Origin: Candidatus Fermentithermobacillus carboniphilus
GTDB lineage: Bacteria > Bacillota > Sulfobacillia > Fermentithermobacillales > Fermentithermobacillaceae
Direction of reading: 5' to 3'
NCBI GenBank assembly: GCA_018208355.1
Contig: CP062796.1
Span: 1,210,494 to 1,274,493, forward strand
DNA length: 64,000 bases
Below are positions 22,404 through 28,077 of the stretch, one piece after another. Positions within the stretch are counted from its first letter, which is position 1. Each line of letters starts with the position of its first letter. The notes under the pieces are model-generated. The model ran no database searches and was not told where the DNA came from. It saw only the letters and a list, made by a program, of their open reading frames with translations. The position numbers were made by a program, and so were the translations under genes.

Positions 22404-22831
22404 GGTAATGAAAATCTGCTTGTCATGAAAATGTGGTCTATTCGCGTCCCCCGGCCACTTCATCTACTGAAACTTTACACTACCAGGGTCTAATTGGGTC
22501 TGGTCACGTAAGTGGTGATTTCGACACAGGTGCTCCTCGTAAGATTGTAGTTAAATTTGTAGTATTCAAACTATTTAATTCTGTCGCCGCCGTTCGATCT
22601 TTTTCGATGGTTTACAGAAAATACCACTAACCCTGGCTGGGAGGTTTCTAAATCATGTAACCGAGTTACCCAGTTTATGTAGGGATATCCTGTCATTTGC
22701 GGTCGAACGATTCCCTGTTGTCCACAAGGGTATCCACAAGCATTTCTCCGAATTATCCCTCCCACTTCCGGGGGCTAGGGCGCTTTGTGTGGTTTGTAAT
22801 AAAGAAAACATTCAGTGACAGGGGGATTGAA
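22404..22831. other. Gene-free region with DnaA-box-like pair
   Basis: No coding frame with a start and family signal is visible here, and the region is more A+T rich than its neighbours. It holds TTGTCCACA (22718-22726) and GTATCCACA (22730-22738), each one base from the DnaA box TTATCCACA, in the same orientation and four bases apart. A weak dyad lies around the TAGT/ACTA pair near 22560-22575. Part of it must act as promoter for the plus-strand gene at 22832, but no good -35/-10 pair was found. Confidence 0.4.
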
Positions 22832-23158
22832 ATGGCGCAGGCTACCATAAAGAAGAGTACCAGGAATTTTTGGAAAGACGGCAGAGAGTTTCTGGTCAGC
22901 TATGAACTCAAGACACACGAAAGTTCCGGAACCTCGGGATATCTCATTCGCGCGCATCTGAAAGAAAAAAGCCCCGAAGGGAAGGAAAAAGAGACAGGTT
23001 CTTGTGTAGAGCTTTTATACCTGTATCAGGAAGTAAGCGAGAGGATCTTCAACCTAATTGCCAACGCTGAAGAACCGGTTTTTCCTATCCACCTGCCCGA
23101 CATAGTCCGCGACGAGATTTTTGGCGCTCTGGTCAAGAGCGTTGAATCTTACTTTTGA
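22832..23158 (+). CDS. Conserved-looking small protein of unknown function
   Basis: 108 residues, start ATG at 22832 with GGGGGA seven bases upstream. The N-terminal half looks like a beta-rich segment (FLVSYELKTHES, GYLIRAHLKEKS), and the second half is helical (LLYLYQEVSERIFNLIANAEE, then an LPDIV segment and EIFGALVKSV). No signal peptide or membrane segment, no catalytic motif that I recognise. It could belong to the small Firmicute DUF6514-type proteins, but I am not sure. Its last codons overlap the end of the convergent NYN gene by ten bases. Confidence 0.65.
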   Translation: MAQATIKKSTRNFWKDGREFLVSYELKTHESSGTSGYLIRAHLKEKSPEGKEKETGSCVELLYLYQEVSERIFNLIANAEEPVFPIHLPDIVRDEIFGALVKSVESYF

Positions 23159-23987: not shown

Positions 23988-24332
23988 TCAAAGGCGCCCG
24001 GCAAGGATGAGGAGGCCGATGACGAGAAAACCACCGCCCGCCAAAAGCCGGATGACATTAACCGGGACAAAGCGGTACAGGGTGTCACCGACCAGTACAC
24101 CTATAACCGAAGATAAGACAAGCGCGCACGCGGATCCTAGAAATACGCTCCAGGGAGCCTTCTTCGAGGAGGCGATCATCATTGTGGACAACTGGGTCTT
24201 GTCACCTAGTTCCGCCAGGAATACAGCCGCAAATGTCGATAATACTATTTGCCAATCCAACGCGAAAGAGCCTTTCGGCTCTACCCTCCCTTCCGAAATC
24301 CCCGGGATATTTCGCCCACGGTCTCTCCACAT
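23988..24332 (-). CDS. Half-size UPF0016/GDT1-family membrane protein
   Basis: Up to 114 residues with three predicted membrane helices and the signature FLAELGDKTQLST in the first. Full-length family members (TMEM165/Gdt1, MntX-like) have two such halves and move Mn2+ or Ca2+; this gene encodes one half, so it would need to dimerise. The family region starts at about residue 24. A TTG at 24260 (reading LDWQIV) is therefore a possible true start, since no good ribosome binding site precedes 24332. Substrate inferred only from the family. Confidence 0.8.
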   Translation of the reverse strand: MWRDRGRNIPGISEGRVEPKGSFALDWQIVLSTFAAVFLAELGDKTQLSTMMIASSKKAPWSVFLGSACALVLSSVIGVLVGDTLYRFVPVNVIRLLAGGGFLVIGLLILAGRL

Positions 24333-24454: not shown

Positions 24455-26449
24455 TCAACTTGCGATCCTTGCTTCCTCGGTTCTGGGCGTCTTTACCCAG
24501 GATTTTGGCTCTCTACCCAGGGCCTTGAGTATCAGCGCTGTTGTATAAGGCACCGGAAACATGAAGGCGGCCAAAGGGAGGATGAGGAGGCCGAGATATA
24601 AAGAAAGCTTCCCCAAGAACGTCTCTGGCTTCGCTGAATGGTCGAGATAAGCGCTATAGCGCTTGAACGCGTACAAAGTAAACCCCATGTAGGTCAGGGA
24701 GAAGGCCGACAGAAGCCACTGGCCTAGAGGCGGGATGATCTCGGGGTCGAGGAGGTTCTTGTAGTGCAATACCATCGCCATCGGCGGGACGAAAGTGGCC
24801 ATCTGGTACAGCACCCATTCGAGCTGCCCTTTCATTATGAGACTTCGCTTAAGCTGCCGGCGTCTTGCAGGATCGGAGGAACCGTCCTTTGAGATTTTCT
24901 CCACGACCTGTAAGTGTCCCGTCCCCCACCGGAGGCGCTGTCGAAAAAACGCCTTGAAGTTGGGCGGAGTCTGCTCCGAGGACGAGTACGGAAGGTATTC
25001 GGGCCAGGCGGCGCACTGGAGATAGGCTCTGGCTCCGAGCTCGAGGTCTTCGGTAAGGACCTGGCAATCCCACCCCCCGATGTCCTCGAGAAGGTCTCTC
25101 GCGACGAACACGTTCGTTCCCCCCACAAAAGGTAGGGTCCTGAACAGCCAGGGTAAGTACCAGTCGTGAGCGATTGCCTGATACAGTGCGGCAATCCTGC
25201 AAAAGGCGGTCATCTGATAGAAGTTCCGGACCTGAAAGACGGGACCCTGCAGCAGGCGCGAGGCTTCTGGGTCCGACAGGCGCCTGTACCCAACGTAGAG
25301 GAGGACATCTTTATGTGGCCTTGATTCAGCGTCATAGAAGCCGCAAACCTCCGTCCTCGGGTCGATGAACCTTAATCCCCAGTTCAGGGCCCGCCCCTTT
25401 GTTGACGGCACGGGTTTTCCGGTTCTCTCACCTCCGAGTTTGCCGTCAAAGTCAAAAGGGACAGTTACGTGCTTCACCGCTGGTAAAACCTCTTTTGCCT
25501 CAATATCTTTTTTGACGCGCTCGACCACTTCCTGGGTGGTCGGGTACATATCTTCTAGCGCAGCCATGAGTTTTTCCTTAAATTCCTGTGACCTCGAGGC
25601 TTTTCTGACCAACTCGGTCACCCTCTTTGCGATGAACTCGGTCATCCGCCTGATTATGTCCTGCGTCAGTTCATGGTTGGCCTCGGCGGTATGCTGGATT
25701 GCCTTTTTCAGCACGGAGTAGCTGGAATCGTCACAGAGATCGGCGTACGCCGCAAGGATGGGCATGGCCACCGTCAAAGAAGCGGGGTAAACACGCTCAA
25801 CATCGAGTTCTGAGAGCCAGGGACATGTTTTTTTCACGATGAAGCGAAGTCTTTTTTTGGGAGGTTTGCCCTTGAACGCGAGTATCTCGATGCAGATATC
25901 CCTTATCAGCCGGTGCCTTTCGGGAAGCGGCAGTGAGGAGAGCTCGGGTACGCCCACGGAATAGTTAGCCTGAAACCTCTTGGACATGAACTCGCAAAGC
26001 GCGTAATCGCTGAGAATCGAGAGTATGACGGACCGGGTTTTCTGCATCTCCTCAGAAGGCAGGTGATTTCTTTGCCGTCGATCCTGCAAGATCGCCTCGG
26101 CTGTTCTCAAGATACGGCTTCTCTCGTCCCTCGACGCCATCGTCTCCTTTTCATCTGTTATCACTATGATTTCGTACGAATCTGGAGGATAATCGAGGGA
26201 CCGGAGGTGCTTTATGGTATTCTCGATCACAAGCGATTCGTTCCTAGCCGGGACCAGGATGGTGATAAAGGGTATCGCTTTTCCCATTCTGGCACCTAGG
26301 TCGCGAAGGTAAGACTCTTTCAGAGAAGGGCGGCGGTTCCAGTACTTCTTTTCGCTGTAATGCTTCCAAACGAAAAACCGGGCAAACAGGACGAAAAAAA
26401 TAAGGTAAACCGAAAAGGCCAAAACGTAGAGAGTTTGGGCAGTCGTCAT
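24455..26449 (-). CDS. Family 2 membrane glycosyltransferase with a ~220-residue internal insertion
   Basis: 664 residues. One membrane helix (about 8-28), then a GT2 core starting ITILVPARNES (62-72) and YEIIVITDE (92-100). The core resumes at KPVPSTKGRALNWGL (about 345-359), with the metal-binding DAES at 373-376, TED at 466-468 and QRLRW at 504-508. Three more hydrophobic segments end the protein. This is the BcsA/NodC-like processive or lipid-linked GT2 plan. Between residues about 104 and 325 sits a largely helical, charged segment that ordinary GT2 enzymes lack at this point. Donor and acceptor unknown. It stands alone between a UPF0016 gene and the terminator at 26554. Confidence 0.88.
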   Translation of the reverse strand: MTTAQTLYVLAFSVYLIFFVLFARFFVWKHYSEKKYWNRRPSLKESYLRDLGARMGKAIPFITILVPARNESLVIENTIKHLRSLDYPPDSYEIIVITDEKETMASRDERSRILRTAEAILQDRRQRNHLPSEEMQKTRSVILSILSDYALCEFMSKRFQANYSVGVPELSSLPLPERHRLIRDICIEILAFKGKPPKKRLRFIVKKTCPWLSELDVERVYPASLTVAMPILAAYADLCDDSSYSVLKKAIQHTAEANHELTQDIIRRMTEFIAKRVTELVRKASRSQEFKEKLMAALEDMYPTTQEVVERVKKDIEAKEVLPAVKHVTVPFDFDGKLGGERTGKPVPSTKGRALNWGLRFIDPRTEVCGFYDAESRPHKDVLLYVGYRRLSDPEASRLLQGPVFQVRNFYQMTAFCRIAALYQAIAHDWYLPWLFRTLPFVGGTNVFVARDLLEDIGGWDCQVLTEDLELGARAYLQCAAWPEYLPYSSSEQTPPNFKAFFRQRLRWGTGHLQVVEKISKDGSSDPARRRQLKRSLIMKGQLEWVLYQMATFVPPMAMVLHYKNLLDPEIIPPLGQWLLSAFSLTYMGFTLYAFKRYSAYLDHSAKPETFLGKLSLYLGLLILPLAAFMFPVPYTTALILKALGREPKSWVKTPRTEEARIAS

Positions 26450-26639: not shown

Positions 26640-27962
26640 CTATATTATTCCTCCCACCATTTCGATGGCTTCTTTCAGCGTGGGAGTTCCGATCTCCTGG
26701 AGCTCGTAACGGACTCTTGTAGAGGGTTTGTCGAGCTTCATGACTCTCCTAAGATCTATCGGGGTGGCTACAACGATGAGGTCGCACGGCACCCTGGCCA
26801 CCGTCTCCTCAAGTTCCTGCACCTGTTTGGGCGAGTACCCCATTGCCGGAAGAAGGGGCCCAATGTGCGGGTATTTTTCAAAAGTTTTAGCTATGGAGCC
26901 CACGGCATAAGGTCGAGGATCCACAAGCTCACTTGCTCCCCATTTCCTTGCAGCCATGACACCGGCACCGTACGACATTTCCCCGTGAGTGAGAGTCGGC
27001 CCGTCTTCTATCACTAAGACCCTCTTGCCCGTGATGGCCTCAGGGTTCTCGGGAAACACCGGCGACGCAGCTTCTACCAAGATAGCGGTGGGGTTGACCT
27101 CTCTCACGGTATTCCTCAAAATGTCCACGTTCTCGGGTCTTGCGGTATCGATCTTGTTTATGACCACCACATCGGCCATCCTGAGGTTTGCTTCTCCCGG
27201 ATGGTACGAAACCTCGTGCCCGGGCCGGTGCGGATCGACCAGGACGATGTGACAATCGGGTTGCACGAAGGGGAGGTCATTGTTCCCGCCATCCCAGAGG
27301 ATGACATCTGCTTCTTCCTGGGCGCGACTCAGGATTTCACCGTAGTCGACTCCCGCGTAAACGATGGTGCCCCTGTCGATATGAGGCTCATACTCTTCCC
27401 GCTCCTCGATCGTGCACTTGTAGGTGTCGAGGTCCTGGTAGGACGCAAATCTCTGGCAGATTTGCTCTTCGAGGTTCCCGTAAGGCATCGGGTGGCGTAT
27501 TGCCGCCACTTTTTTCCCGGCGCGTTTGAGGATCTCGGCCACTTTTCGCGTTGTCTGGCTTTTTCCCACACCTGTCCTCACGGCGCATACCGAAACCACC
27601 GGTTTTTTGGACTTGAGCATGGTCTGTTTTGGACCCAAGAGCCTGAAGTCGGCGCCGGCTGCCAGGGCAATAGATGCTTTATGCATGACATTGAGGTGGG
27701 AAGTGTCACTGTAGGCGAATACCACCTCGTCCACGTCATACTTCTTTATGAGATGAGAAAGCTCGTCCTCAGAATAGATGGGGATCCCGTTCGGGTAAAG
27801 TTTTCCCGCAAGACGGGGAGGATAGATGCGTCCCTCGATGTCCGGGATCTGGGTCGCCGTGAAACATACCACTTCAACGTCAGGGTTATCCCTGTATACC
27901 ATGTTGAAGTTGTGAAAATCCCTTCCCGCAGCCCCCATTATTATGACTTTCTTTCGCAACAT
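26640..27962 (-). CDS. Cyclic 2,3-diphosphoglycerate synthetase-like GTPase
   Basis: 440 residues from the ATG at 27962, which follows a GGAGAGAGG site. An N-terminal Rossmann-like domain (KVIIMGAAGRDFHNFN) is followed by a P-loop domain: VCAVRTGVGKSQTTRK at about 125-140, WDGGNND at 223-229 and NKID at 269-272, which favours GTP. The family is named after the archaeal enzyme that makes cyclic 2,3-diphosphoglycerate, but bacterial members often sit beside amino-acid or carbamoyl-phosphate genes and I know of no tested role for them there. It is the last gene before the terminator and follows argF by 115 bases, so a link to ornithine or carbamoyl phosphate metabolism is possible. Confidence 0.82.
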   Translation of the reverse strand: MLRKKVIIMGAAGRDFHNFNMVYRDNPDVEVVCFTATQIPDIEGRIYPPRLAGKLYPNGIPIYSEDELSHLIKKYDVDEVVFAYSDTSHLNVMHKASIALAAGADFRLLGPKQTMLKSKKPVVSVCAVRTGVGKSQTTRKVAEILKRAGKKVAAIRHPMPYGNLEEQICQRFASYQDLDTYKCTIEEREEYEPHIDRGTIVYAGVDYGEILSRAQEEADVILWDGGNNDLPFVQPDCHIVLVDPHRPGHEVSYHPGEANLRMADVVVINKIDTARPENVDILRNTVREVNPTAILVEAASPVFPENPEAITGKRVLVIEDGPTLTHGEMSYGAGVMAARKWGASELVDPRPYAVGSIAKTFEKYPHIGPLLPAMGYSPKQVQELEETVARVPCDLIVVATPIDLRRVMKLDKPSTRVRYELQEIGTPTLKEAIEMVGGII

Positions 27963-28077
27963 TTCCTCTCTCCTCTCTGCGTCTGACCTTAAAGGTTGCT
28001 TCAGTATTCCGCCTAAACCCAAACATCAGCCGGGGTACCAGAGTAGAATAGGTCTCCCCGGCCCAGCATCTTCTCAC

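Follow-up and report, generated by a model that had tools for sequence, protein, structure and literature searches.

The window analyzed here, a 64,000-nucleotide stretch of DNA of Candidatus Fermentithermobacillus carboniphilus, from the heat-loving Bacillota, contains on its minus strand the gene for a family 2 (GT2) membrane glycosyltransferase (24455..26449) whose catalytic domain is interrupted by about 190 additional residues. According to a confident structure prediction, the interrupting segment is a separately folded, all-alpha domain. Its probable role, although with considerable room for doubt, is that of a peripheral, non-catalytic module of the GT2 synthase that acts in docking, self-assembly or regulation. 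The earlier note on this DNA had described a GT2 enzyme with a helical segment lodged between its donor-binding and DxD-bearing halves, and domain hits, homologues without the insert and structure prediction agree on that point.

The base enzyme is probably an active membrane-anchored glycosyltransferase

The gene is a single open reading frame with an ATG start and encodes 664 amino acids. An N-terminal membrane helix is predicted at residues ~1-35 (26345..26449, minus strand), where a hydrophobic window spans residues 1-30 and a low-confidence model places a helix at 3-35. It is followed by the N-terminal half of the GT-A domain at residues 60-102 (26144..26272, minus strand), which contains T98-D99, with D99 as the first catalytic-site Asp, and which PF00535, the N-terminal GT2 half, matched at residues 63-105 with 22.2 bits, just below the 23.3 cut-off. 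The C-terminal half of the GT-A domain, residues 346-530 (24860..25414, minus strand), carries STKGRALN (349-356), DAE (373-375), TED (466-468) and QRLRW (504-508). The protein finishes with a C-terminal membrane region at residues 531-660 (24470..24859, minus strand), with a hydrophobic window at 609-644, helices at 527-643 in the low-confidence model, and the end KTPRTEE.

Two Pfam models identified the protein as GT2 with scores over the gathering cut-off of 27 bits, PF13632 at residues 373-561 (62.9 bits) and PF13641 within residues 294-510 (44.1 bits), and the same search of the whole protein found no accepted family between the two GT2 halves. The motifs D, DxD/E, (T)ED and Q(x)xRW are all present and in order, as D99, D373-A-E375, T466-E-D468 and Q504-R-L-R-W508. 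Across 40 distinct proteins that were aligned, D99, D373, E375, T466-E467-D468, Q504, R505, R507 and W508 were invariant. The best NCBIfam models were the equivalogs PgaC_IcaA (TIGR03937) and CelA (TIGR03030), with 53.9 bits against a curated cut-off of 422.3 and 34.2 bits against 699.1, respectively, so neither assignment was reached. Judged from its sequence, the protein is probably an active, membrane-anchored GT2 glycosyltransferase with a PgaC/cellulose-synthase-like layout, in which one N-terminal membrane helix would precede a cytosolic GT-A domain and then the C-terminal membrane helices. The QxxRW and TED motifs together with the membrane helices are only suggestive of a processive, polymer-exporting synthase.

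The insertion follows the first catalytic Asp

The donor-binding half ends with VITDEKE at residue 102, where the earlier note had placed it, and the interval compared across members runs from E102 to P303. In the window protein this interval covers residues 103-302 (25544..26143, minus strand), which is 200 amino acids with T103 as the first and Y302 as the last. Among 68 distinct members, a set that leaves out one copy with internal stops (L064) as well as readings cut off at contig edges in L025 and L027, the interval measured 183-220 amino acids in 43 and 7-11 amino acids in 20 shorter homologues from the same phylum. It was 158 amino acids in three others, and 95 and 292 amino acids in one each; the flanks could be aligned in all of them. 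The insert-less group represents 20 of the 22 places where such proteins occur, the remaining two lying in G134 and, as one of its two, in G266. Because 20 close homologues bridge E102 and P303 with 7-11 residues, the insertion proper amounts to about 190 residues within 103-302, and the first estimate of about 220 residues was slightly high.

The segment at residues 303-345 (PTTQEVVE...VPxDFDGxLGG; 25415..25543, minus strand) is kept with and without the insertion, and by sequence comparison it belongs to the base enzyme. The DxD half had been said to resume at about residue 345; STKGRALN starts at 349, and the base enzyme already resumes at 303. The earlier note expected GT2 enzymes to cross this gap with some 30 residues. 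In five ordinary GT2 proteins from this class, the matching profile interval was bridged with ~10-36 residues, compared with ~240 here.

The insert is predicted to be an independent all-alpha domain

When residues 98-325 were modeled alone, the result had a mean pLDDT of 84.5 and a pTM of 0.82 and was all-alpha (12 helices, no strands), in line with the "mostly helical" segment described earlier. A full-length model built from five sequences was much poorer (mean pLDDT 55.6; residues 374-517 below 50), which leaves the placement of the insert relative to the active site without a prediction. Most 10-residue blocks of the insert within that model had a pLDDT of 75-88. The best VIA matches of the full-length model were GT-A enzymes, namely PcManGT (Z 10.5), GtrB (Z 8.6) and CESA3 (7ck2, Z 7.8).

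Searches with the insert model returned only weak matches in the PDB (Foldseek, best E 0.13), in BFVD (best E 0.16) and in VIA (best Z 5.0), where nuclear-receptor, TetR and FtsH chains appeared at Z ~4, a level at which helical bundles may match by chance arrangement according to the tool's note. Weak matches of a predicted helical bundle are not evidence for a new fold, and the domain may have a known one. At the sequence level, the window insert had one Pfam match, at 15.8 bits against a gathering cut-off of 27, and no named domain. A Pfam search with 41 inserts found no family that matched more than three members, the best E being 0.0043 with cut-offs seen for the first member only. A profile of these 41 rows, drawn from 48 inserts by omitting the near-duplicates L051 and L063 and the odd-length L035-L038 and L040, found no solved chain among PDB sequences at E < 0.1. 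Across Pfam, NCBIfam, PDB sequence and fold searches, no known GT2 sub-domain of a described subfamily turned up in the segment, in which the earlier note had recognized no motif; the weak fold matches leave room for a known fold. A literature search, mostly without subscription journals, did not find a description of the insertion in work on GT2 enzymes or on the plant-conserved region (P-CR) of cellulose synthases.

An intein or intron was also considered and rejected. Inteins have a Hint beta fold and characteristic splice-junction residues; this segment is in frame, its model is all-alpha without strands, its ends are T103 and Y302-P303, and no intein family was found in Pfam.

The insertion recurs within the class and is absent from one clade

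The same insertion recurs in relatives. When 61 genomes, the organism's own and 60 relatives, were searched at the protein level, 44 gave matches, and a profile of the 40 distinct proteins aligned from these matched 32 of 299 genomes of the phylum. Eleven of these 32 had the full profile, including the stop-broken copy of G223, and 21 had short proteins at 22 places, with open frames of 472-543 amino acids and matches that skip from profile position ~106 to ~299. Within the class, 46 of 154 genomes have the GT2 enzyme. The 41-row insert profile matched 50 places in 44 of the 154, at the same site, and the two GT2-bearing genomes that it did not match carry either a 95-amino-acid insert (G034) or a divergent protein with an insert of its own (G047). 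Since all 50 profile matches sit within GT2 matches, a stand-alone or mobile insert domain was rejected, as was a frameshift fusion or assembly artefact, given the single open reading frame and an insert that stands at the same position in 44 of the 154 genomes. No viral relatives were found.

All 20 insert-less proteins fall into one clade (support of 0.986 in the core tree and 93 in an outgroup-rooted tree), which suggests a single event of gain or loss. In the outgroup-rooted tree, which has very long branches and very distant outgroups, the insert-bearing copies are basal with node supports of 91, 39 and 71. This rooting would imply an early gain of the insert and one later loss, an order that is only tentative with such basal supports and outgroups.

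The insert diverges fast but is constrained in close pairs

Over long distances, no other part of the protein sequence diverges as fast as the insert, with identities to the window protein among distant class members of 23-31%, compared with 58-73% for residues 345-530, as expected of a peripheral module. In eight close standard pairs with a core dN < 0.11, which were picked after the table of pairs was seen (L062/L063, L027/L051, L004/L002, L002/L003, L004/L003, L007/L012, L011/L008 and L012/L015), the insert dN/dS was ~0.05-0.17 in all eight, or ~0.9-4.3 times the value for residues 303-530. These values point to purifying selection on the insert in close pairs, looser as a rule than on residues 303-530. 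When 113 pairs were pooled, dN/dS came to 0.905 in the insert and 0.31-0.42 in the other parts; this was not taken as a sign of absent constraint, since the pairs are mostly distant ones whose synonymous sites have become saturated or are biased by composition. Most of the conserved insert positions in the 43 standard members hold structural residues (L, P, G, Y, A), and the polar ones are T262 (91%), R219 (79%) and H259 (77%).

Several copies depart from the standard form. The inserts of L035-L037 (158 amino acids) and L038 (95 amino acids) show no significant similarity to the standard one, with hhalign probabilities of 8% and 0.5%, respectively, and the core is kept in all of them. The paralogue group of the organism's own genome with the 158-amino-acid insert had an insert dN/dS of ~0.5-0.76, so constraint on the insert is not uniform. 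The second GT2 copy in that genome (L035:6921-8777; G000:C1 ~613926-615776) has this different insert under relaxed constraint, and the genes beside it, judged from their N-termini, are presumably rimP-nusA-infB. In L040 (3129-5381) and L118, ~95-120 extra residues, Ala/Pro-rich in L040, lie before or in the helical insert, suggesting that the site tolerates further growth. A 677-amino-acid open frame on the minus strand in L113 (G047:C18) is very divergent: its DxD, TED and QxxRW motifs are changed and it has its own insert. It is perhaps an inactive paralogue. Tandem duplicate GT2 genes occur in L050 and L052, with the insertion in both, and G223 has a GT2 copy with three internal stops (L064).

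Gene neighborhood offers a positional lead

The gene order in the window is GDT1 - GT2 - cDPGS-like - OTC - radical SAM - LigB/AMMECR1, and it is partly repeated in other families. The cDPGS-like gene encodes a 460-amino-acid protein resembling cyclic 2,3-diphosphoglycerate synthetase (26640..28022, minus strand; PDB 9sxb at E 5e-7 and 8oru at E 8e-5). By coordinates, such a gene lies within ~3 kb of the GT2 gene in 22 of the 46 GT2-bearing class genomes, across seven families, and it is near GT2 in 9 of 29 insert-bearing loci, odd-length copies included, compared with none of 14 insert-less loci. A copy is directly downstream of GT2 in L038, L045, L046, L047 and L053. In L038, L045 and L053, two copies flank the GT2 gene, and the gap to the downstream one is tens of nucleotides or almost nil. 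A cDPGS-like gene was present in 65 of 154 class genomes, including some without GT2 (e.g., G002, G006 and G009), and the protein was accordingly rejected as a partner by co-occurrence, leaving a positional link. Because the gene occurs without GT2 and taxonomy confounds the contrast between loci, we treat this neighborhood as a lead only.

The single-repeat GDT1 neighbor (23988..24332, minus strand; 114 amino acids; PF01169, 83.9 bits) belongs to a divalent cation/proton antiporter family, and a gene of this family was also near GT2 in L002, L003, L004, L038, L045 and L053. The antiporter might supply or clear metal for the transferase. On the plus strand of the window, a 153-amino-acid open reading frame (22697-23155) matched no Pfam family.

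Possible roles of the insertion

The insert would be a family-specific all-alpha domain that splits the GT-A domain just behind the strand with D99 at its end. Because both of its ends meet just after D99, it would sit on the cytosolic side at the entrance to the donor site; the topology of GT2 enzymes would place such an insertion on the cytoplasmic face. It would take no part in the basic transfer reaction, since 20 homologues do without it, and would control access to the synthase or its organization through docking, self-assembly or regulation. Fast divergence, absence from one clade and decay in a paralogue all fit a non-catalytic accessory role. The earlier note's suggestion that the insertion could bind a regulator or partner is plausible.

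A narrower version, possible yet doubtful and resting on analogy, is that the synthase homo-oligomerizes through this domain, a role also put forward for the P-CR of plant CESA. The insertion separates the first Asp from DxD and is predicted to be all-helical, and the full-length model has CESA3 as one of its best matches; moreover, the rice CESA8 P-CR crystal has a 3-fold contact and AtCESA1 central domains trimerize (PMC6508838). The same source also describes the P-CR role as not yet proven and a trimer by that contact as thought impossible with the membrane domain (PMC6508838), and the insert profile, which found no solved chain at E < 0.1, picked up no CESA chain even up to E 1. The P-CR is also described as two parallel helices (PMC4921827), against 12 predicted here. 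A bolder proposal, which we consider unlikely, is a new family-specific helical regulatory domain that arose as an independent bacterial counterpart of the P-CR and couples the synthase to a cytosolic partner, possibly the cDPGS-like neighbor.

That the domain is instead a substrate-handling lid, which would help to bind the acceptor or gate the donor and so set product specificity, seems quite unlikely: the insert does exit and re-enter the fold at the donor-site Asp and has a few conserved polar positions, but the family core persists without it in 20 homologues, its conserved positions are mainly structural, and no part of the protein diverges faster. Least probable of all would be a passenger of little function, an old insertion in a permissive loop that was retained since it folds. 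Such a passenger would suit the copies in which the core is kept while the insert is shortened or replaced (L035-L037 and L038) or enlarged (L040 and L118), and it sits poorly with the low dN/dS of the insert in all eight close pairs and with a near-constant length in 43 of 68 members from many families. We favor a peripheral docking, self-assembly or regulatory module.

Comparison with known systems

The window enzyme resembles the processive GT2 synthases PgaC/IcaA and BcsA/CelA in its D, Dx(D/E), TED and QxxRW motifs and in having a GT-A domain between membrane helices. It differs from them in scoring far below the equivalog cut-offs and in having 200 amino acids between the first-Asp and PTTQ segments.

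The P-CR of plant cellulose synthase likewise interrupts a catalytic domain as a helical insertion. In CESA it stands between the first Asp and the DxD motif, and in the window enzyme the 200-amino-acid interval from E102 to P303 likewise falls between D99 and D373. The two differ in size and build, since the P-CR has ~125 residues and two helices and the window insert has ~190 residues and 12 predicted helices; the profile search of PDB sequences detected no homology to the P-CR, with no CESA chain up to E 1. From its position and its description as peripheral and cytosolic (PMC4921827), the P-CR appears to be the nearest analogue of the insert. For the P-CR, too, the role of such an insertion is described as unproven (PMC6508838).

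A further comparison is with the insert-less homologues (463-482 amino acids as read; e.g., L066, L086 and L092), which share 47-53% identity with the window enzyme in matched parts and match the same Pfam GT2 models, but have 7-11 residues in place of the 200-residue interval and a different gene neighborhood. Such natural pairs with and without the insertion (~660 versus ~470 amino acids, with a core ~50% identical) provide a clean system for asking about the effect of a large insertion at the donor-site entrance of a GT2 enzyme.
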